A stretch of DNA of 44,754 nucleotides from Clostridia bacterium. GTDB lineage: Bacteria > Bacillota > Clostridia > Oscillospirales > RGIG577. The translations under genes and the position numbers were made by a program. The notes under the pieces were generated by a model. The model had not been told where the DNA came from and made no database searches. It saw nothing but the letters and a program-made list of their open reading frames with translations. The stretch is from contig JAFWDJ010000022.1 of NCBI GenBank assembly GCA_017513095.1, positions 1-44,754 on the forward strand, read 5' to 3'. Below, in pieces: positions 5,194-33,786 of the stretch; position 1 is the stretch's first letter, and each line of letters begins with the position of its first letter.

Positions 5194-5230
5194 AAAAAAG
5201 GCAGACCGTTTTTAGCGGTCTGCCTTTTTT
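5194..5230 (-). terminator. Terminator of rnpB (bidirectional)
   Basis: Stem GGCAGACCG / CGGTCTGCC with A6 on one side and T6 on the other. It sits immediately beyond the 3' end of the minus-strand RNase P RNA and could also stop plus-strand transcripts. Confidence 0.85.
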
Positions 5231-5570
5231 GAGCAAACAATAAGCCGGGTTCTGTAGTTGACAGCCATCTATCTGGGACGCGCGTTGCCGCGCGCCTCGA
5301 GCCGTATGGGGAGAATTGGCCGGACGTCGCCGCGCTTTCGCGCCTCTCCCGTTAGTTGCTCCGGGTGGGGTTTACATGGCCGGCAAGTCGCCGTTGCCGC
5401 CGGTGAGCTCTTACCTCGCCTTTCCATCCTTACCTGCCCGGGGGCAGGCGGTCTATTTCTGTTGCACTTTCCCTGAAGTCGCCTTCGGTGGACGTTATCC
5501 ATCACCCTCGTCCTGTGGAGCCCGGACTTTCCTCATGCGGTGATGCCGCACGCGGCTGTCTCGTTTACTC
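5231..5570 (-). ncRNA. rnpB: RNase P RNA, bacterial type A
   Basis: Catalytic RNA of RNase P, which matures tRNA 5' ends. Read on the minus strand, it holds the universal 5' core GAGGAAAGTCCGGGCTCC (complement at 5517-5534) and the 3' core ACAGAACCCGGCTTAT (complement near 5240-5256). The ends GAGTAAACGA (5561-5570) and TTGTTTGCTC (5231-5240) pair with G-U wobbles as helix P1, which sets a length of about 340 nt. The GTCCGGGCTCC and AACCCGGCTTAT forms match the ancestral type A architecture common in Clostridia, not the type B of Bacilli. Open frames crossing this region are artefacts. Confidence 0.95.
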
Positions 5571-5576
5571 GAATAA

Positions 5577-12660: not shown

Positions 12661-13461
12661 ATGGTCAGCATTGATATGTCGGGTAAGAACGTACTTATCA
12701 CCGGCGCGGGCGGCGGCATCGGCGGCGGCATAGCCGACGTATTCGCAAAAGCCGGCGCGAAGGTATACGTTGCGGACTGGAAATTTGAAAACGCCCAAAG
12801 AAAGGCCGACGAAATAAAGGCCGCGGGCGGCGAAGCGATCCCCCTGATGCTCGACGTCACGAAAAAGGACGACATATACGCGGCGGTCGATAAGATAGCC
12901 GCCGAGGACGGCAGGATCGACAACCTTGTTACGTGCGCGGGCGCCATGTACAACGTGCCCTACATGAAGACGACCGAGGAGCAGCTTCGCACGCTGCTCG
13001 AAATAAACCTGATATCCGTAAACAATACGTGTCAGGCGGTCTTAAGGCACATGATACCGCGCAAGGAGGGCAAGATAGTAAACGTGCAGTCATCCGCGTC
13101 GCGCGAGGGTCATCCGCTGTGCGCGCATTACGCGGCGTCGAAGTTCGGCGTAATGGGCCTTACGCAGTCGATAGCGCTTAGCGTTACGGGCGACAACATC
13201 AACGTAAACGGCCTCTGCCCCGGATTTATCGACACGCAGCTCGGCGCGCAGCAGAACTCGAACCTCTGGGACGTCCTCATGAAGAACTGGGGCAAATCGA
13301 AGGAGGAAATGATGAGCGTGCTCGTAGCACGGGACATCCCGATGCAGCGGCTGCAGACGCCCGAGGACATAGGCTACGCGGCGCTTTTCCTCTGCTCCGA
13401 CATGGCGAAGAACATCACCGCCCAGTCGCTCAACATCGACGGCGGCATGAAGCTCGACTGA
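12661..13461 (+). CDS. SDR-family oxidoreductase, array copy 1
   Basis: A 266-aa classical short-chain dehydrogenase/reductase. The Rossmann motif is TGAGGGIG (residues 14-21), the usual NNAG motif appears as VTCAG, and the catalytic Ser144, Tyr157 and Lys161 (YAASK) are present, so it should be active with NAD(P)H. It ends in GGMKLD. AAAGGAG precedes the ATG at 12661. It is first of four tandem copies and most resembles copy 2. Substrate unknown: polyols, sugar acids and steroids are all handled by this superfamily. Confidence 0.9.
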   Translation: MVSIDMSGKNVLITGAGGGIGGGIADVFAKAGAKVYVADWKFENAQRKADEIKAAGGEAIPLMLDVTKKDDIYAAVDKIAAEDGRIDNLVTCAGAMYNVPYMKTTEEQLRTLLEINLISVNNTCQAVLRHMIPRKEGKIVNVQSSASREGHPLCAHYAASKFGVMGLTQSIALSVTGDNINVNGLCPGFIDTQLGAQQNSNLWDVLMKNWGKSKEEMMSVLVARDIPMQRLQTPEDIGYAALFLCSDMAKNITAQSLNIDGGMKLD

Positions 13462-13493
13462 TTTTTAAATTTTTATATAAAGGAGATAATGAT

Positions 13494-14294
13494 ATGGTAA
13501 GCATTGATCTGTCAGGCAAAAACGTACTTATCACCGGCGCAGGCGGCGGCATAGGCGGCGGTATCGCGAACGTATTCGCCCAGGCGGGAGCCAAGGTATA
13601 CGTTGCCGATTGGAAAATTGAGAACGCCGAAAAGAAGGCCGCCGAACTCAAGGCAAACGGCTATGACGCCGTACCCGTAATGCTCGACGTTACGAAGAAG
13701 GACGACATCACCGCTGTCGTTGACAAAATAGTTGCAGACGACGGCAAGATTGACAACCTCGTTACGTGCGCGGGCGCATGCTACAACATTCCCTTTATGC
13801 AGACGACCGAGGATCAGCTTCGCACGCTGCTCGAGATCAACCTGATATCCGTAAACAATACGTGTCAGGCAGTCTTAAAGCACATGATCCCGCGCAATGA
13901 GGGCAAGATAGTTAATATCCAGTCCTCCGCGTCGCGCGAGGGCCATCCGCTGACCTCGCATTACGCGGCGTCGAAGTTCGGCGTAATGGGCCTTACGCAG
14001 TCGATAGCGCTCAGCGTTACGAGCAACAACATCAACGTAAACGGCCTCTGCCCCGGATTTATCGACACGCAGCTCGGCGCACAGCAGGGCTCGAACCTCT
14101 GGGACGTGCTCATGAAGGCTTACGGCCAGCCCAAGGAACAGATGCTTCAGACTCTCGTTGCGAAGACCGTTCCGATGGGACGCATGCAGACCCCCGAGGA
14201 TGTAGGCTACGCTGCTTTGTTCCTCTGCTCCGACATGGCAAAGAACATCACCGCTCAGTCGCTCAACATCGACGGCGGCATGAAGCTCGACTGA
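13494..14294 (+). CDS. SDR-family oxidoreductase, array copy 2
   Basis: 266 aa, the same length as copies 1 and 3. It has TGAGGGIG, Ser-Tyr-Lys (YAASK) and ends in GGMKLD. By eye it is closest to copy 1, including SSASREGHPL and GLCPGFIDTQLGAQQ; differences concentrate in the helices after the active site (for example NLWDVLMKAYGQPKEQM), the usual substrate-binding part of SDRs. It lies 32 bp after copy 1 with its own AAAGGAG site, so co-transcription is expected. Confidence 0.9.
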   Translation: MVSIDLSGKNVLITGAGGGIGGGIANVFAQAGAKVYVADWKIENAEKKAAELKANGYDAVPVMLDVTKKDDITAVVDKIVADDGKIDNLVTCAGACYNIPFMQTTEDQLRTLLEINLISVNNTCQAVLKHMIPRNEGKIVNIQSSASREGHPLTSHYAASKFGVMGLTQSIALSVTSNNINVNGLCPGFIDTQLGAQQGSNLWDVLMKAYGQPKEQMLQTLVAKTVPMGRMQTPEDVGYAALFLCSDMAKNITAQSLNIDGGMKLD

Positions 14295-14321
14295 TTCTTG
14301 GTTTAAAAGGAGATAATCATT

Positions 14322-15122
14322 ATGGTAAAAATAGATATGACAGGTAAGAACGTGCTTATCACCGGCGCGGGCGGCGGTATAGGCGGCGGCATCGCGGACG
14401 TATTCGCAGAAGCGGGCGCAAAGGTATACGTTGCCGACTGGAAGACGGAGAACGCCGAAAAGAAGGCCGAGGAAATTAAGGCCAAAGGCGGAAACGCCGT
14501 TGCCGTAACGCTCGACGTTACGAAAAAGGACGATATCTACGCTCTTATCGACAGGATAGTTAAGGAAGACGGAAACATAGACAACCTCGTAACCTGCGCG
14601 GGCGCATGCTACAACATCCCCTATATGAAGACTACCGACGAACAGTTCAGAACGCTGCTCGAGATAAACCTTCTTTCGGTAAACAACACGTGCCAGGCAG
14701 CTCTTAATTATATGGTTCCGCGCAAGCAGGGCAAGATAGTAAACATTCAGTCGGCGTCCTCGCGTGAGGGCTCGCCCATATGCTCGCATTATTCGTCGTC
14801 GAAATTCGGCGTAATGGGCCTTACTCAGTCCATCGCGCTCGCAGTTGCAAAAGAGAATATCAACGTAAACGGCATATGCCCCGGCATCGTTGTAACGTCG
14901 CTCGGCGCACAGCAGGGCTCCAACCTTGTTGACGTTATAATGAAGAGCAGCGGTCAGTCGAGAGAAGTTATACTTCAGTCGCTCGTTGACAGGAATATCC
15001 CCATGGGACGCTTCCAGACGGCCGAGGACGTGGGCTACGCGGCGCTCTTCTTATGCTCGGATTACGCACAGAACATCACGGGACAGTCTTTAAACGTTGA
15101 CGGCGGCATGAGACTTAACTAA
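14322..15122 (+). CDS. SDR-family oxidoreductase, array copy 3
   Basis: 266 aa with TGAGGGIG and the catalytic YSSSK variant of YxxxK. It belongs with copy 4 by its C-terminal half: QSASSREGSP, ALAVAKENINVNGICPG, CSDYAQNITGQSL and the end GGMRLN. It lies 27 bp after copy 2 with AAAAGGAG upstream of the ATG. The split of the array into a GGMKLD pair and an MRLN pair suggests two substrates or two stereochemical steps; this is inference. Confidence 0.9.
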   Translation: MVKIDMTGKNVLITGAGGGIGGGIADVFAEAGAKVYVADWKTENAEKKAEEIKAKGGNAVAVTLDVTKKDDIYALIDRIVKEDGNIDNLVTCAGACYNIPYMKTTDEQFRTLLEINLLSVNNTCQAALNYMVPRKQGKIVNIQSASSREGSPICSHYSSSKFGVMGLTQSIALAVAKENINVNGICPGIVVTSLGAQQGSNLVDVIMKSSGQSREVILQSLVDRNIPMGRFQTAEDVGYAALFLCSDYAQNITGQSLNVDGGMRLN

Positions 15123-15167
15123 ACGATCCCGCGTTTTAATCATAAAAAAATTACAGGAGGGACTTTC

Positions 15168-15965
15168 ATGGTAAACTTTGATTTTACGGGTAAAAACGTT
15201 CTTATATCGGGCGCAGGCGGCGGCATAGGCGGCGGCATCGCCGACGTATTCGCAAAGGCCGGCGCAAAGGTATACGTTGCGGACTGGATAGAGGAAAACG
15301 CAAAGAAAAAGGCAGATGAGATAAATGCTGCGGGCGGCAAGGCTGTTGCCGTAAAGCTCGACGTAACCGATCTGCAGGCTATCGAGGATACGATGAAGAT
15401 GATAGTTGACGCCGACGGCGGCATCGACAATCTCGTTACGTGCGCGGGCGTTATGTACAATAAGCCCTACATGATGACGAAGCCCGAGGAAATGAAGCTT
15501 ACGCTCGACGTAAACCTCGTTTCGGTAGATAATCTCTGCCACGCGGCTCTTAAGTACATGCTCCCCAAGAAGGCAGGCAAGATAGTAAACATTCAGTCGG
15601 CTTCCTCGCGTCTGGGCAATCCGAACAGCGCCCATTATGCGGCTTCCAAGTTCGGCGTAATGGGTCTTACCCAGTCCATCGCGCTTGCGGTAGCAAAAGA
15701 GAACATAAACGTAAACGGCATCTGCCCCGGCCTCGTTGTAACGGGACTCGGCGATCAGCAGAACAGCTCGACGATAACCATGTACATGAAGGCACGCAAC
15801 TGCACGAGAGAAGAAGCTTTAGAGGCTTTAAAGACCTTCTCGCCGATGGGACGCTTCCAGACTCCCGAGGACATGGGCAACGCCGCTTTATTCCTCTGCT
15901 CCGAATACGCTCAGAACATCACCGGCCAGTCGCTTAACGTAGACTGCGGCATGAGACTTAACTAA
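15168..15965 (+). CDS. SDR-family oxidoreductase, array copy 4
   Basis: 265 aa and the most divergent copy. The glycine-rich motif is SGAGGGIG (Ser replaces the first Thr), the active site YAASK is intact, and the C-terminus is DCGMRLN, with Cys where the other copies have Gly. The substrate-loop segment (QQNSSTITMYMKARNCTREEA) differs from all others. AGGAGGG precedes the ATG. It is last in the array and followed by a strong terminator. Confidence 0.9.
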   Translation: MVNFDFTGKNVLISGAGGGIGGGIADVFAKAGAKVYVADWIEENAKKKADEINAAGGKAVAVKLDVTDLQAIEDTMKMIVDADGGIDNLVTCAGVMYNKPYMMTKPEEMKLTLDVNLVSVDNLCHAALKYMLPKKAGKIVNIQSASSRLGNPNSAHYAASKFGVMGLTQSIALAVAKENINVNGICPGLVVTGLGDQQNSSTITMYMKARNCTREEALEALKTFSPMGRFQTPEDMGNAALFLCSEYAQNITGQSLNVDCGMRLN

Positions 15966-27699: not shown

Positions 27700-27728
27700 T
27701 TGACATATACGGGCGGCCGTAATATAAT
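27700..27728 (+). promoter_or_regulatory. Perfect consensus sigma-A promoter
   Basis: TTGACA (27700-27705), 17 bp, TATAAT (27723-27728). The predicted start, near 27735, is only about 12 nt before a terminator-like hairpin. Confidence 0.9.
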
Positions 27729-27746
27729 GCTTTATAGAAAGCAATG

Positions 27747-27780
27747 GCGCTTCTCCCTTGGGGAGGGGCGTCTTTTTTTA
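27747..27780 (+). terminator. Intrinsic terminator in leader of KaiC/ATP-grasp gene (attenuator-like)
   Basis: Stem GCGCTTCTCCC (27747... ) with GGGAGGGGCGT around a TTG loop, then CTTTTTTTA. It is placed between the consensus promoter and the ribosome site, so most transcripts should stop here unless antitermination occurs. An ATG at 27744, in frame with the gene, starts a short run across the hairpin. Confidence 0.7.
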
Positions 27781-27800
27781 TTTGTACGGGAGGTATTATC

Positions 27801-30371
27801 ATGGCTGCATTTGAAAGAGTAAAGTCGGGGATACCCGAAATGGACGCCGCCCTCGACAATATAAGGCTGGGCGACAACGTAGTATGGCGCGTCTCGGATT
27901 TGTCCGAGTTCCGCCTTTTTATGGAACCGTATCTTTTGCAGGCGATAGAGGACAAGAGAAATATAATCTACTTCAGATTTGCGAGCCACGAGCCGCTTGT
28001 TGAGGACCGCCCCGAGGTGAAAACGATAGAGGTGCCGCTGTCGCACCGCTTTGAGACGTTCACGGTCGATATCCACAACGCCATAGAGCGCGAGGGCAAG
28101 GACGCCTTTTACGTTTTCGACTGCCTCTCCGAGCTTCAGGCAATGTGGGCTACCGATTTAATGATGGGCAACTTCTTTCGGGTAACGTGTCCGTTCCTTT
28201 TCATACTCGATACGGTGGCGTTCTTCCCGATCATAAGAGGAAAGCATTCCGTTCACGCGATAAACAAGATACTCGATACGACGCAGCTCTTCCTTGACGT
28301 GTATTCGGATCACAGAAACGTATACATCCGCCCCGAAAAGGTCTGGAACAGAAATTCCGACACCATGTTCCTGCCGCACACCTACGAACCCGAAACGGGT
28401 CGCTTCAGGCCCATTTTAGACGGCGTAAAGTCGAGCCGCTTTTATCAGGTATTGGGCTACGCGCAGCGTTCCGCCGACGAGCAGTTCATGGACTCGTGGG
28501 ACAGGTCGTTTAAAAAGGCGAAGATACTCTACGAGAACGGAGTTGACATCTCGGCACAGTGCGCCAATATGTGCAACATCATGATGACGCGCGACACGAA
28601 GATGCGCGAGATGGTCAAGAAGCATTTTACGCCCGAGGACTACTTCGACGTGCGTGACCACATGATAGGCACGGGCATGATAGGCGGCAAGGCCTGCGGC
28701 ATGCTTCTGGCGCGCGCGATAATAAGAAACACCGAGCCCGAGATAAACGAGGTCTTAGAGCCCCACGACTCGTTCTACGTCGGCTCCGACGTGTATTATA
28801 CTTATATAGTTGACAACAACTTCTGGGATTTGAGGATAAAGCAGCGCACCGAGGAGGGGTATTATGCCCTCGCCGCCGATTTTGCCGCGCATCTCATGAA
28901 CGGACGCTTTTCCGACGAAATGCGTGAGCAGTTCGCCCATATAATCGAGTATTACGGCCAGGACCCGTATATCGTCCGTTCGAGCAGTATCCTTGAGGAC
29001 GGCTTCGGGAACGCCTTCGCGGGCAAGTACGAATCGGTGTTCTGCGCGAACAGGGGAACGCTTGCGGAGCGTCTTTCGGAATTTGAAAACGCGATAAAAA
29101 CGGTCTACGCAAGCACGATGAGCCTTTCCGCGCTCGATTACAGAAAGCGGCGCGGTCTCGACAAACGCGACGAGCAAATGGCCCTTCTCATTCAGCGCGT
29201 TTCGGGCTCCTATTACGGCGCTTATTATATGCCGTGCGCGGCCGGAGTGGGATACTCCTACAGCCCGTACAGCTTTCTTAAAAGCTCCGACCAGTCGGCG
29301 GGAATGCTCCGTCTCGTAATGGGTCTCGGCACGTCGGCGGTTGACAGGACCGAGGGCTCGTATCCGAGACTCGTAAGCCTTGATATGCCCGAAAAAACGA
29401 TATATTCAAGCGACGCCGACAGGCACAGATTCTCGCAGGGCAGAATAGAGGTAATAAACACCTCGCAGCACGACATGGAGCGTCTGCCGCTTCGCGCGGT
29501 GGAGCCCGAGATGCCCGAATATCTTAAAAAGATACTGCTTGAGCACGACTTCGAGGCGGAGAGCAGACTGCGCGAAATGGGACGAAACGTCTCCTCAACG
29601 TTCATCTCCTGCCACGGCCTTGTAAGCAACAAAACGCTCATGACGCAGATGCAGAATATGCTCATGCGCATACAGGACGAATACGAATACCCCGTCGATA
29701 CTGAATTTACGATAAACGTCTCCGACAACGGCGAATATTCCATAGACCTGCTTCAGTGCAGGCCGCTTCAGGTAATCCACGACAGGACGGGCGTTATAAT
29801 TCCCGAGGATATAAAGGAGGAGAATATCCTTCTTGAGAGCCGCGGCGCGTCGATGGGCATTTCAAGCTCCACGAAGCTCGATATTATAGTGTGGGTCGAT
29901 CCCGTGGCGTACTACAATATGCCGTACCGCGAGAAGGCCTCCGCGGCAAAGCTTATCGGCAAGATAAACTGGCATTACCGCGACTCCGAAAAGCATATGA
30001 TGCTCATGGTGCCCGGCAGGGTGGGAACCTCGTCGCCCGAGCTCGGCGTGCCCACGTCGTTTGCGGAAATAAGCGAATTTAAGGTCGTATGCGAGATGGA
30101 GGAGTCGCGGGCGGGCTACAATCCGGAGCTCTCCTACGGCAGCCACTTCTTTCAGGACCTGGTCGAGGCGGAGATTTTATATACCGCGGTATTCAACAAC
30201 GAAAAAACGCTGCACTTCGCCCCCGAAAAGCTTATGGGACAGAAGAATATCCTAAAGGAGATCGACGAAAACAGCGGACTTGACGATATAATCCGCGTTT
30301 ACGACGTAAGCTCGTGCGACTGCCGCCTTTACAACGACATAAAAAACGAGCACCTTCTTATAACCATATAA
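27801..30371 (+). CDS. Degenerate KaiC/RecA-like domain fused to PEP synthase-type ATP-grasp domain
   Basis: An 856-aa protein with ATG 27801 behind GGGAGGT. Residues 1-230 resemble a KaiC/RecA fold: SGIPEMDAALDNI and a Walker B-like FYVFDCLSEL are present, but where a Walker A GxxGxGKT should stand the sequence reads VSDLSEFRL, so ATP hydrolysis here is unlikely. Residues about 285-660 carry PEP synthase/PPDK N-terminal signatures: GTGMIGGKACGM, YIVRSSSILEDGFGNAFAGKYESV and LQCRPLQ. The swivelling phosphohistidine domain and PEP-binding barrel are absent; residues 660-856 are an unrecognised C-terminal region. It is probably an ATP-dependent phosphotransferase or ligase of unknown substrate, not a true PEP synthase. 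Cytosolic; no signal peptide. Confidence 0.8.
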   Translation: MAAFERVKSGIPEMDAALDNIRLGDNVVWRVSDLSEFRLFMEPYLLQAIEDKRNIIYFRFASHEPLVEDRPEVKTIEVPLSHRFETFTVDIHNAIEREGKDAFYVFDCLSELQAMWATDLMMGNFFRVTCPFLFILDTVAFFPIIRGKHSVHAINKILDTTQLFLDVYSDHRNVYIRPEKVWNRNSDTMFLPHTYEPETGRFRPILDGVKSSRFYQVLGYAQRSADEQFMDSWDRSFKKAKILYENGVDISAQCANMCNIMMTRDTKMREMVKKHFTPEDYFDVRDHMIGTGMIGGKACGMLLARAIIRNTEPEINEVLEPHDSFYVGSDVYYTYIVDNNFWDLRIKQRTEEGYYALAADFAAHLMNGRFSDEMREQFAHIIEYYGQDPYIVRSSSILEDGFGNAFAGKYESVFCANRGTLAERLSEFENAIKTVYASTMSLSALDYRKRRGLDKRDEQMALLIQRVSGSYYGAYYMPCAAGVGYSYSPYSFLKSSDQSAGMLRLVMGLGTSAVDRTEGSYPRLVSLDMPEKTIYSSDADRHRFSQGRIEVINTSQHDMERLPLRAVEPEMPEYLKKILLEHDFEAESRLREMGRNVSSTFISCHGLVSNKTLMTQMQNMLMRIQDEYEYPVDTEFTINVSDNGEYSIDLLQCRPLQVIHDRTGVIIPEDIKEENILLESRGASMGISSSTKLDIIVWVDPVAYYNMPYREKASAAKLIGKINWHYRDSEKHMMLMVPGRVGTSSPELGVPTSFAEISEFKVVCEMEESRAGYNPELSYGSHFFQDLVEAEILYTAVFNNEKTLHFAPEKLMGQKNILKEIDENSGLDDIIRVYDVSSCDCRLYNDIKNEHLLITI

Positions 30372-30383
30372 AAAGGCGCGCCC

Positions 30384-30412
30384 TTGACGCAGACGGCACG
30401 GCGATATATAAT
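30384..30412 (+). promoter_or_regulatory. Promoter of the FabG-like gene
   Basis: TTGACG (30384-30389), 17 bp, TATAAT (30407-30412). The leader holds a GAAGCGG-CAGG-CCGCTTC hairpin (about 30423-30441). Confidence 0.8.
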
Positions 30413-30472
30413 CTGAACGTGACGAAGCGGCAGGCCGCTTCGGGCGAGTATGAAAAATCGAGGTGATGCTTG

Positions 30473-31192
30473 ATGCTGAAGGACAAAATTGCGGTCGTAA
30501 CGGGCGCCGCCAACGGTATAGGCAAAGCGATATGCGAGGTTTTTATTAAGAACGGCGCGAAGGTGGCAGGTATTGATATCACGGCCTTCGAAAGCGCCGA
30601 TGCGGAGAATATGCGCTGTTACAGAGCCGACGTTTCGGATACGTCGGACTGCGAAAGGGTGTATAAAGAGATAGCAGGGCAGTACGGCCGCGTCGATATC
30701 TTAGTCAACTGCGCCGGCATAACGCGAGACGCCATGACGAAGAAGATGACTGAGGAGCAGTTCGACCGCGTCGTCGCCGTAAACTTAAAGGGAACGTGGA
30801 ATCTCACGCGCCTTATCGGCCCCGCGATGCAGCAGAGACAATCAGGCTCGATAATCAACATATCGTCCGTCGTCGGCGTATTCGGAAACGTAGGTCAGGC
30901 GAATTACGCGGCGACGAAGGCGGGCGTTATAGGCATGACGAAAAGCTGGGCGAAGGAGTTCGCGATGAAGGGCGGCAACGTCCGCGTGAACGTTATCGCG
31001 CCGGGCTATACGATGACCGATATGATGAAAACGGTCCCGCCCGACCTTTTGGAAAAGTTCAAGGGCATGACGATGCTTGGACGTCTTGCCGAGCCGTCGG
31101 AAATAGCGAACGCCGCGCTCTTTTTGGCGTCCGACCTTTCAAGCTACGTGACGGGCGAGCTTTTGAACGTAAACGGCGGCATGAGGCTGTAA
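30473..31192 (+). CDS. FabG-like SDR (3-oxoacyl-ACP reductase family)
   Basis: A 239-aa SDR close to FabG: TGAANGIG cofactor motif, NCAG (in LVNCAGITRDAM), catalytic Ser-Tyr-Lys with INISSVVG and YAATK, VNVIAPGYTMTDM and the end GELLNVNGGMRL. ATG 30473 follows GAGGTGA by 6 nt; a TTG one codon upstream is less likely. It is monocistronic between its own promoter and a terminator, with no fatty acid synthesis genes nearby, so an acyl-CoA, polyol or other carbonyl substrate is equally possible. It is not part of the four-copy array and lacks that group's GGGIGGG motif. Confidence 0.9.
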   Translation: MLKDKIAVVTGAANGIGKAICEVFIKNGAKVAGIDITAFESADAENMRCYRADVSDTSDCERVYKEIAGQYGRVDILVNCAGITRDAMTKKMTEEQFDRVVAVNLKGTWNLTRLIGPAMQQRQSGSIINISSVVGVFGNVGQANYAATKAGVIGMTKSWAKEFAMKGGNVRVNVIAPGYTMTDMMKTVPPDLLEKFKGMTMLGRLAEPSEIANAALFLASDLSSYVTGELLNVNGGMRL

Positions 31193-32631: not shown

Positions 32632-33329
32632 TCCTTATGCCAATATGTCCTGCTTTAACATATATTTTTTTAGAACTTCGTTCTAAAGACTTTGGTCTCC
32701 TGCCGGAGGGGCCTACTTTTGGAAACAAAAGTAGCAAAATCCGGGGTCCCCGAAAAATACGCTCGCGGATTTTTTGGGGTGGTATTGAGGGGGACCGCGG
32801 CACAGGCTCGCGGGGCTTGTGCTAAATGCAGACTTTCTGCAGCGCTTAGGCCGCCTTCCCCCCGTCCCCTTTGATTTTACGGCCTCGAAGTCACACATCA
32901 TCGGTAGATGACGCAATCAAAATCAGACGGGCGCACGATGCGCCCGACACGGCGCAGCCGATGGAGTTACTTTGTCTTGCTGAAAGCAGCTTTCAGCGGG
33001 CGCGAAGTCTTGGAGCGGCTCGGACGCGAAATTTTATTGGACGCGAAGATATCTTGAATGATGCTTCATATCGAGGCAACTATAAGTATAAGAGTAAATT
33101 GCGCCTTTATTTGAAGGAGAAGCGATAGAAAAACGCGGAGTAGTGCCGAGCGGAGAGGCCCGCGTGAGCGTGGCCGGGAGCGAGGGAGCAGAGAGACGGA
33201 GAGGCCGCGGCCTCTCGGAAATTTTGGTTCTTTTGTTTCCAAAAGAACCCCCGCGGGAGGCGACAAAAGTCTTTAGAACGGAGTTCTAAAAAAGAATTGA
33301 TGTTGAAGCAGGATGCATAGGCATAACTA
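32632..33329. mobile_element. MITE-like element with about 100-bp imperfect inverted ends
   Basis: The left arm (32632-32736) and the complement of the right arm (33226-33329) align over about 100 bp: both read CTTATGCC or TTATGCC, TCCTGCTT, TTTTTTAGAAC, GTTCTAAAGACTTT, CTCC and TTTTGGAAACAAAAG in order. Each arm contains two small hairpins (AGAAC...GTTCT and a GAAA-capped stem). The 490-bp interior has no credible gene. The size, ends and lack of transposase suggest a non-autonomous mobile or REP-type element; no clear target duplication was seen. Confidence 0.6.
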
Positions 33330-33417
33330 AGACAAAAGATAGGTTAAATGCTTTAGAAAAAGGCTTATTGTAAGTTCAAAGTATACAAAAGAACAGTAAG
33401 CACTGCAAAGGTGCGAC

Positions 33418-33452
33418 TTTAAGATTCTTCTTCGCTTGCGCTCCTCAGAATG
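33418..33452. repeat. Interspersed CATTCTGAG-type repeat
   Basis: AAGATTCTTC-TTCGCTTGCG-CTCCTCAGAATGACA; its complement begins TGTCATTCTGAGG and belongs to a well-known family of short palindromic intergenic repeats seen in many bacterial genomes. Confidence 0.55.
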
Positions 33453-33476
33453 ACATACGAGGGATGAGGGCGCACC

Positions 33477-33551
33477 GTAGGGAGGCATGCCTTCATGCCT
33501 CCGTGAACACATGGCTAAGCCATGCGGAGGCGTCAGGGGACGCCTCCCTAC
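33477..33551. repeat. Nested palindrome with three internal hairpins
   Basis: An outer GTAGGGAGGC / GCCTCCCTAC pair encloses GGAGGCATG-CCTT-CATGCCTCC, CATGGCT-A-AGCCATG and GGAGGCGTC-AGGG-GACGCCTCC. The whole can fold as a cloverleaf, or the outer arms can pair with inner ones. Confidence 0.7.
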
Positions 33552-33560
33552 GAAGGACAA

Positions 33561-33757
33561 GCGGCGCTGCACCTCATCCGTCGGCTTCGCCGCCACCTTC
33601 CCCTCGAAGGGGAAGGCAATACGGGGCAACAACTCCCTCAGTCGGCTGCGCCGACAGCTCCCTTTACACAAGGGAGCCTTTAGGGACGCACGCGCCGAGC
33701 GGCGCTGCACCTCATCCGTCGGCTTCGCCGCCACCTTCCCATCGAAGGGGAAGGCAA
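33561..33757. repeat. 59-bp direct repeats flanking a related hairpin unit
   Basis: Copies at 33561-33619 and 33699-33757 differ at one base. Each contains GTCGGCTTCGCCG and CCTTCCCCTCGAAGGGGAAGG-type hairpins. Between them (about 33630-33680) lies a related unit, CTCAGTCGGCTGCGCCGACAG and CTCCCTTTACACAAGGGAG. Same-strand open frames through this block are translations of repeats, not genes. Confidence 0.8.
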
Positions 33758-33786
33758 ATACCCCCGCGCCGGCAGGCGCGGTGATT

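Follow-up and report, generated by a model that had tools for sequence, protein, structure and literature searches.

A KaiC-like domain without a P-loop fused to a PEP synthase-type ATP-grasp core in Clostridia, and a leader attenuator linking its gene to nitrogen assimilation

The nitrogen enzyme I of the phosphotransferase system (PTS), PtsP, carries a GAF domain on a phosphohistidine protein that is fed by phosphoenolpyruvate (PEP). Other described systems resemble single parts of the locus considered here. Inactivated KaiC domains (iKaiC; MEDS and DUF835) act as a signalling module in archaea (PMC5847659), and the ATP-grasp part of the two-component dikinases HpeHI, CreHI and PpsAB is separable from the substrate part (PMC12167813). 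The ANTAR leaders described for genes of P-II, ammonium transporters and glutamine synthase consist of pairs of hairpins (PMC3369931), and the ANTAR protein NitR induces the glutamine synthetase and glutamate synthase (GS/GOGAT) genes of Clostridium saccharobutylicum on nitrogen limitation (PMC6316151). Here we analyze a gene for an 856-residue protein (27801..30371, ATG to TAA) in a 44,754-nucleotide stretch of Clostridia DNA (contig JAFWDJ010000022.1 of assembly GCA_017513095.1; the window, in forward-strand coordinates). The protein joins, in this order, a KaiC-like domain that has lost the P-loop, an ATP-grasp domain with intact key residues and a C-terminal domain with one invariant histidine, His782, and the leader of its gene carries an attenuator that genes for ammonium transport and glutamine/glutamate genes also have. 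The searches made of the open-licence literature gave no description of this domain order. Our preferred reading, to which we give a little less than an even chance, is a sensor-gated protein for ATP phosphotransfer under nitrogen control, with His782 on a divergent carrier domain.

The sole Pfam match in the protein was PPDK_N (PF01326; residues 293-674, 28677..29822; E 5.1e-43). The nearest solved structure of this ATP-grasp domain was rifampin phosphotransferase (RPH) 5hv1 (Z 24.4, 295 residues, 3.0 A); Foldseek also matched HpeI 9goj, and NCBIfam gave a weak similarity to PigC/RedH. Residues K297, R393, E635, Q652 and R654, which we take to be the dikinase catalytic residues, align with the GGK, VRSS, IEW and LQSRP motifs of PEP synthase and are identical in all 53 rows of a diverse set. 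Among these rows are the copy from the window itself (L118) and some duplicates, L123 and L008 for instance being one gene. We take the domain as active, and the PEP synthase-type ATP-grasp half named in the first-pass annotation of the window was borne out.

We next consider the domain in front. In an AlphaFold model of the protein built on the 63-row alignment A3 (mean predicted local distance difference test (pLDDT) 86.6, predicted template modelling score (pTM) 0.85), residues 1-220 (27801..28460) adopt a KaiC/RecA fold without a P-loop, similar to iKaiC, and are followed by a mostly helical linker (residues 221-292, 28461..28676, from the secondary structure of the model). VIA-align placed residues 1-214 on KaiC 8dba with a Z of 21.1 (200 residues, 2.8 A) and the domain on the archaeal KaiC-like protein FlaH 4yds with a Z of 19.3. 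A Walker A signature, GK[ST] within residues 18-50, was found in 0 of the 63 rows of A3 and 0 of the 18 rows of alignment A1. The P-loop looks deleted rather than mutated, because strand 26-31 and helix 34-50 are separated by just two residues in the model. Asp107, at the end of the Walker B-like strand, is invariant in both alignments (63/63 and 18/18), as are C108, H149, Q162, K180 and R184 in A3 (63/63). Among 18 members, the Pfam families MEDS (one member, E 0.029) and DUF7090 (two members, E 0.015) matched below cut-off, and DUF835 had no listed match. The annotation had likewise called a KaiC-type N-terminus with a Walker B-like strand and no Walker A, and had raised the question of whether the first 235 residues fold otherwise; the model and the structural matches agree with its call.

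The C-terminal domain (residues 662-856, 29784..30368) had been described as an unknown stretch of 200 residues with no phosphohistidine or PEP-binding domain following the ATP-grasp half. The region is more than an unknown piece: it is a conserved domain of four architectures, and its best structural matches are known carrier domains. Predicted alone (pLDDT 91.7) and compared with the folds that VIA-align lists, it gave nine best rows that were all phosphoryl-carrier domains from entries of pyruvate phosphate dikinase (PPDK) or RPH, including PPDK 2fm4 (Z 6.1, 114 aligned residues, 3.3 A), PPDK 5jvn (Z 6.0) and RPH 5fbu (Z 5.6). The phosphoryl-carrier domain is also the one that stands right after PPDK_N in PPDK. 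Against PEP synthase 2ols the full model aligned along 360 residues, reaching residue 467 of that enzyme, compared to 295 residues for 5hv1, the ATP-grasp domain alone. His782 (codon 30144..30146) is invariant (53/53 rows, and 63/63 in A3), as no other histidine of the domain is. It stands in the motif P-E-L-S-x-G-[ST]-H in most rows and is accompanied in the 53-row set by conserved R740, G749, E765, P775, S778 and G780. By order of elements, His782 stands at the start of the helix whose counterpart in the carrier domain has the catalytic histidine as its first residue. When the alignment was weighted by secondary structure, that of the template being partly assumed, the two histidines came to within 3 residues of each other at several gap settings. 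The best reading of these models, which is not a result, is a divergent carrier domain with His782 as the putative phosphate carrier. The absence of a PEP-binding domain stands: the protein ends after the C-terminal domain, Pfam gives only PPDK_N, and no PEP/pyruvate-binding barrel was found. The absence of any phosphohistidine domain has become doubtful, given the carrier-like fold and the invariant His782.

The ATP-grasp and C-terminal domains also occur apart from the KaiC-like domain. Searched with a profile that covers residues 656-851 of 13 members, 48 of 398 genomes of the phylum gave 51 matches, and in all 30 loci fetched by the C-terminal domain the ATP-grasp motif lay in the same frame, so the pair forms a fixed unit. 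By length of open frame, 17 matches (863-903 residues) were KaiC-like, 8 (1065-1076) GAF-like with a C-terminal nucleotidyltransferase (Pfam NTP_transf_2), 22 (572-773) core only and 4 (982-1022) receiver-type where the sequence was in hand; 'GAF-like' is our own reading, not called by Pfam, and the receiver (Response_reg) scored below cut-off. A tree of 47 cores, grouped by clades (with L032, L125 and L129 among the GAF-like/nucleotidyltransferase types), placed the KaiC type in one clade (100/100), ten GAF-like rows in another (100/100) and twelve core-only rows in a third (93/93), with one row from the fourth length class; L005, which falls within the KaiC clade, lacks the KaiC domain. Since these clades carry a different front module or none, the ATP-grasp and C-terminal core is an independent unit with exchangeable front modules, and the regulatory role that the annotation had assigned to the N-terminus gains support from the same core being found with other N-termini or without one. 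The GAF-like type carries its nucleotidyltransferase, which is MntA-like, as a fusion (L023-L026, L032); a similar free-standing nucleotidyltransferase (L180:9317-9661) adjoins a core-only gene, which hints at a functional pair.

The firmest functional evidence lies in front of the gene, where the annotation missed an attenuator that ties it to nitrogen assimilation. The leader runs from promoter through terminator hairpin and ribosome-binding site to ATG: a sigma-70-type promoter (TTGACA-17-TATAAT, 27700..27728, 12 of 12 consensus positions) precedes an intrinsic terminator (27746..27779; a 12-bp hairpin at 27746-27772 and a T run) and the ribosome-binding site GGGAGG (27788..27793), all on the forward strand. 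The 5' arm of the terminator can alternatively pair with RNA just upstream and close a hexaloop with A at position 1 and G at position 4; this putative antiterminator hairpin (27739..27752, forward strand) has a 4-bp stem, AAGC/GCTT, and the loop AATGGC (27743-27748), and the terminator overlaps it. An alternative in-frame ATG at 27744 (875 residues) is unlikely to be the start, because it lies upstream of the terminator hairpin and the ribosome-binding site.

Both elements recur in front of homologous genes. Under a strict rule (terminator no more than 110 nucleotides from the start), 15 of 74 homologous genes had a terminator compared to 11 of 481 other open reading frames (ORFs) at the same loci (Fisher 4.6e-8), and by folding energy 51 of the 92 leaders had a hairpin with a T tail, compared to 21 of 150 controls. 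The hexaloop C.A..G..G, with a C-G closing pair and a stem of at least 3 bp, occurred in 45 of 92 leaders and 24 of 481 control ORFs. Covariation was examined in 29 leaders of one structural type among the 45 with both elements, 41 of which were aligned. In the 29, the terminator had 94.3% of cells paired and double changes in 8 of 12 pairs, which no shuffle reached, and the antiterminator had 81.3% of cells paired. As the rows had been selected for the loop and a 3-bp stem, only the four outer antiterminator pairs are a free test: across the 41 rows they were paired in 57.1% of cells compared to 48.3% in shuffles (reached by 0 of 500 shuffles), with two slid versions coming near. Where a promoter was called (21 leaders), the -10 box ends 10-28 nucleotides before the loop in 20, and the space from promoter to terminator has room for a single hairpin. 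Rfam gave nothing near its gathering score for the leader.

A covariance model built from the 29 leaders, R1, was searched in the window's genome. Beyond the window it gave five matches at E <= 0.003, four of which were leaders: one of amtB and a P-II gene, one of a Peptidase_C26/GATase gene, one of an amtB-P-II fusion, and one of a cluster of GATase_2 and glutamate synthase in which glutamine synthetase and the single ANTAR protein of the genome are also encoded. The fifth match, at C16:76321, lies behind an ORF, has no hexaloop and was not counted as a leader. At E <= 0.01, 13 of the 14 matches in three genomes of the genus preceded the same types of gene or the present gene (the genes in the two other genomes being read by eye). 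Across 80 named loci, the best 80 of at least 576 relatives, the same threshold gave 52 matches, of which 29 preceded the present gene and 23 preceded other genes. The latter comprised RelA-like synthetases (6), AmtB (3), NAD synthetase (2), citrate-synthase-like (2), GNAT (2) and circularly permuted ATP-grasp proteins (2), and one each of GMP synthase, a PuuD-like amidotransferase, CarB-like, glutamine-synthetase-like and FUSC-like proteins and an ABC ATPase; some of these names come from Pfam, and several are presumptive, read from the sequence. Support for a link between the gene and nitrogen is good in this genus and in many relatives. The amtB-P-II leader (L196:1940-2040; C27:52439 in the window's genome) seemingly has two tandem hexaloop hairpins, the second being AAGAC-AATGGC-GTCTT. 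In the sole ANTAR protein (L197:8417-8983), beside glutamine synthetase, the phospho-acceptor Asp of the receiver is apparently Asn (CIINAPL; position by eye).

In the mechanism that we propose, shortage of nitrogen would lead an ANTAR-type regulator (NitR-like, from the glutamine synthetase cluster) to stabilize the hexaloop hairpin, the terminator would not form and the gene would be transcribed. The P-loop-less KaiC domain, which would not hydrolyze ATP, may sense a ligand or partner and in this way control the ATP-grasp domain, which would phosphorylate His782 on a swivelling C-terminal domain, as in PEP synthase; from His782 the phosphate would pass to a separate acceptor, since the protein has no third substrate domain. 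We infer both the carrier step and the gating. No carrier partner in trans was evident, the only PF00391 match of the genome lying in a 591-residue frame that is PTS enzyme I by length, and no PEP synthase model scored over cut-off in the window's genome. Because of this single PF00391 match, the lack of such a synthase and the lack of a third domain, the acceptor, whether a protein or a small molecule, would lie outside the protein.

Several results weigh against this reading. At the leader, 41 of the 92 lack a hairpin at the threshold and 21 of the 150 controls have one, and the second ANTAR hairpin (P1) was not found, P1 stems in 39 leaders being as in shuffles. In the C-terminal domain, the carrier-fold match (Z 6.1) falls short of 8, the value below which the tool cautions that an arrangement may be a common one, Foldseek gave a best E of 0.058, to unrelated proteins, and His782 comes close to the catalytic histidine only with secondary-structure weighting and not at every gap setting. 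An ungapped profile scan placed the canonical histidine motif elsewhere, chiefly on GPGRWG..LGVP, in at least three of four motif lengths and ranked His782 18-41. The MAFFT register, which sets GPGRWG..LGIP over GGRTCHAAI..ELGIP, broadly agrees with the best ungapped windows; it would omit one strand-helix unit, and we prefer the topological register. A canonical histidine domain of the PEP synthase type, for which the annotation had proposed to look in this region, is rejected on sequence: PF00391 matched 0 of 13 members, hhalign to the histidine domain gave a probability of 0.3 of 100, and the canonical motif was present in 0 of 53 rows. A sequence search of the PDB and a viral structure library also gave no match for the domain. 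This lack of motif and profile similarity favors the annotation's own view, in which a pseudo-ATPase controls an ATP-grasp domain that phosphorylates an outside acceptor directly and the C-terminal domain has nothing to do with phosphohistidine. The fold of that domain and its position right after PPDK_N match a carrier domain, however, and its invariant His, Arg, Glu and Ser are kept in all four architectures, so that we consider direct phosphorylation improbable.

A further alternative is a small-molecule dikinase or ligase, whose C-terminal domain would bind a nitrogen-containing metabolite that the ATP-grasp domain activates, directly or via His782, in the manner of rifampin phosphotransferase, HpeHI or the prodigiosin ligase PigC, with the KaiC-like domain as a purely allosteric or oligomerization part. 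The nearest solved ATP-grasp relatives and the weak similarity to PigC/RedH point this way, and many of the genes that share the leader belong to glutamine or amide metabolism. Yet neither a second substrate-binding domain in the protein nor a conserved enzyme operon was found, and signalling-type modules in front of the same core would be unusual for a metabolic enzyme; we regard this alternative as possible though doubtful. It might also be argued that the N-terminal domain senses nothing and serves only as an assembly scaffold (a hexamer ring), leaving the nitrogen leader as sole control: KaiC-like proteins form rings, and L005 does without the domain altogether. Against this, the invariance of D107, H149, Q162, K180 and R184 suggests a kept binding site, and the core also occurs with GAF-like or receiver modules; we think a mere scaffold unlikely. 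Returning to phosphotransfer through His782, its wider form is more speculative, and we rate it as clearly less probable than the reading for this gene: an undescribed, widespread class of signalling proteins that work through phosphohistidine and are driven by ATP, with interchangeable modules (P-loop-less KaiC, GAF-like, receiver) as their gates, which in rumen and gut Clostridia would be an ATP-fed analogue of the nitrogen PTS under antitermination. If the mechanism proposed for the protein is right, it would be an entry point to phosphorelays outside histidine kinases and the PTS, and the link to the regulon offers an immediate way to test it.

The gene is present as a single copy in the window's genome, and the two other genus members searched have it too, one at 93% and one at 89%. 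Of 196 genomes drawn from across the class, 26 matched the protein at E <= 0.001, some of these matches being weak ones typical of ordinary PEP synthases. A scan of species genomes found the stretches encoding the at least 576 confirmed relatives; by record title the best 80 are mostly from rumen and gut Clostridia and include Ruminococcus flavefaciens FD-1 and Butyrivibrio. The architecture is not due to chance, because full-length relatives are found in many genomes. A relative was found in only 1 record of a plasmid collection and 2 of a phage collection (identity 24-26%); the phage records, MT835811.1 and MT835667.1, are unannotated human-gut 'Bacteriophage sp.' encoding a PPDK_N-type protein and may be bacterial DNA. 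As to a defence system, PADLOC gave no match for the protein.

No conserved operon was found around the gene. A RelA_SpoT-domain protein is encoded no more than three genes away in 10 of the 80 loci, with no close copy in the window's genome. In L066, L048, L043, L052, L046 and L042 this protein (about 330 residues) adjoins the KaiC-PPDK gene and has the same attenuator; its gene is alarmone-synthetase-like and looks under nitrogen antitermination. In the window, a short-chain dehydrogenase gene (30470-31192) follows 98 bases downstream with its own promoter-like site (30384-30412) and stands at the same place in the close relative L036. Elsewhere, 12661-15965 holds four tandem short-chain-dehydrogenase-like genes, adjacent ones being 69-83% identical, 5226-5571 encodes class A RNase P RNA on the reverse strand, and 33327-33784 looks rich in GC-rich repeats, with overlapping ORFs that are probably spurious.

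Compared with known systems, the protein is closest to the dikinase family, would work in the way of a dikinase and is a full member of no family compared. It shares with iKaiC a KaiC fold without an ATPase motif, used there as a signalling module (PMC5847659); it differs in occurring in Bacillota, in its fusion to a kinase-like core and in matching MEDS and DUF7090 weakly. Its leader resembles those of the ANTAR/NitR type in the A1/G4 hexaloop on a stem overlapping an intrinsic terminator, in preceding nitrogen genes and in the ANTAR gene beside glutamine synthetase, although the targets described there have two hairpins and this one has one (PMC3369931, PMC6316151). RPH and the HpeHI, CreHI and PpsAB dikinases supply the nearest solved ATP-grasp domains (5hv1, 9goj), whereas their swivel domain (T/SXXGGXXXH) and substrate domain were not found in the 856-residue protein (PMC12167813). 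With PEP synthase and PPDK (PF01326) it has in common the ATP-grasp domain with its catalytic residues and a carrier-like fold directly after it; it lacks their T..GG...H motif and PEP/pyruvate-binding barrel and has an N-terminal module in front. PtsP likewise combines an input domain with a phosphohistidine carrier protein linked to nitrogen. It uses PEP and a canonical histidine domain, which together with a PEP-binding domain of its type was not found here by Pfam or motif scan, whereas the present protein has an ATP-grasp domain and a divergent one. In its design, the protein would correspond to the nitrogen PTS enzyme I, with ATP in place of PEP as its source of phosphate.

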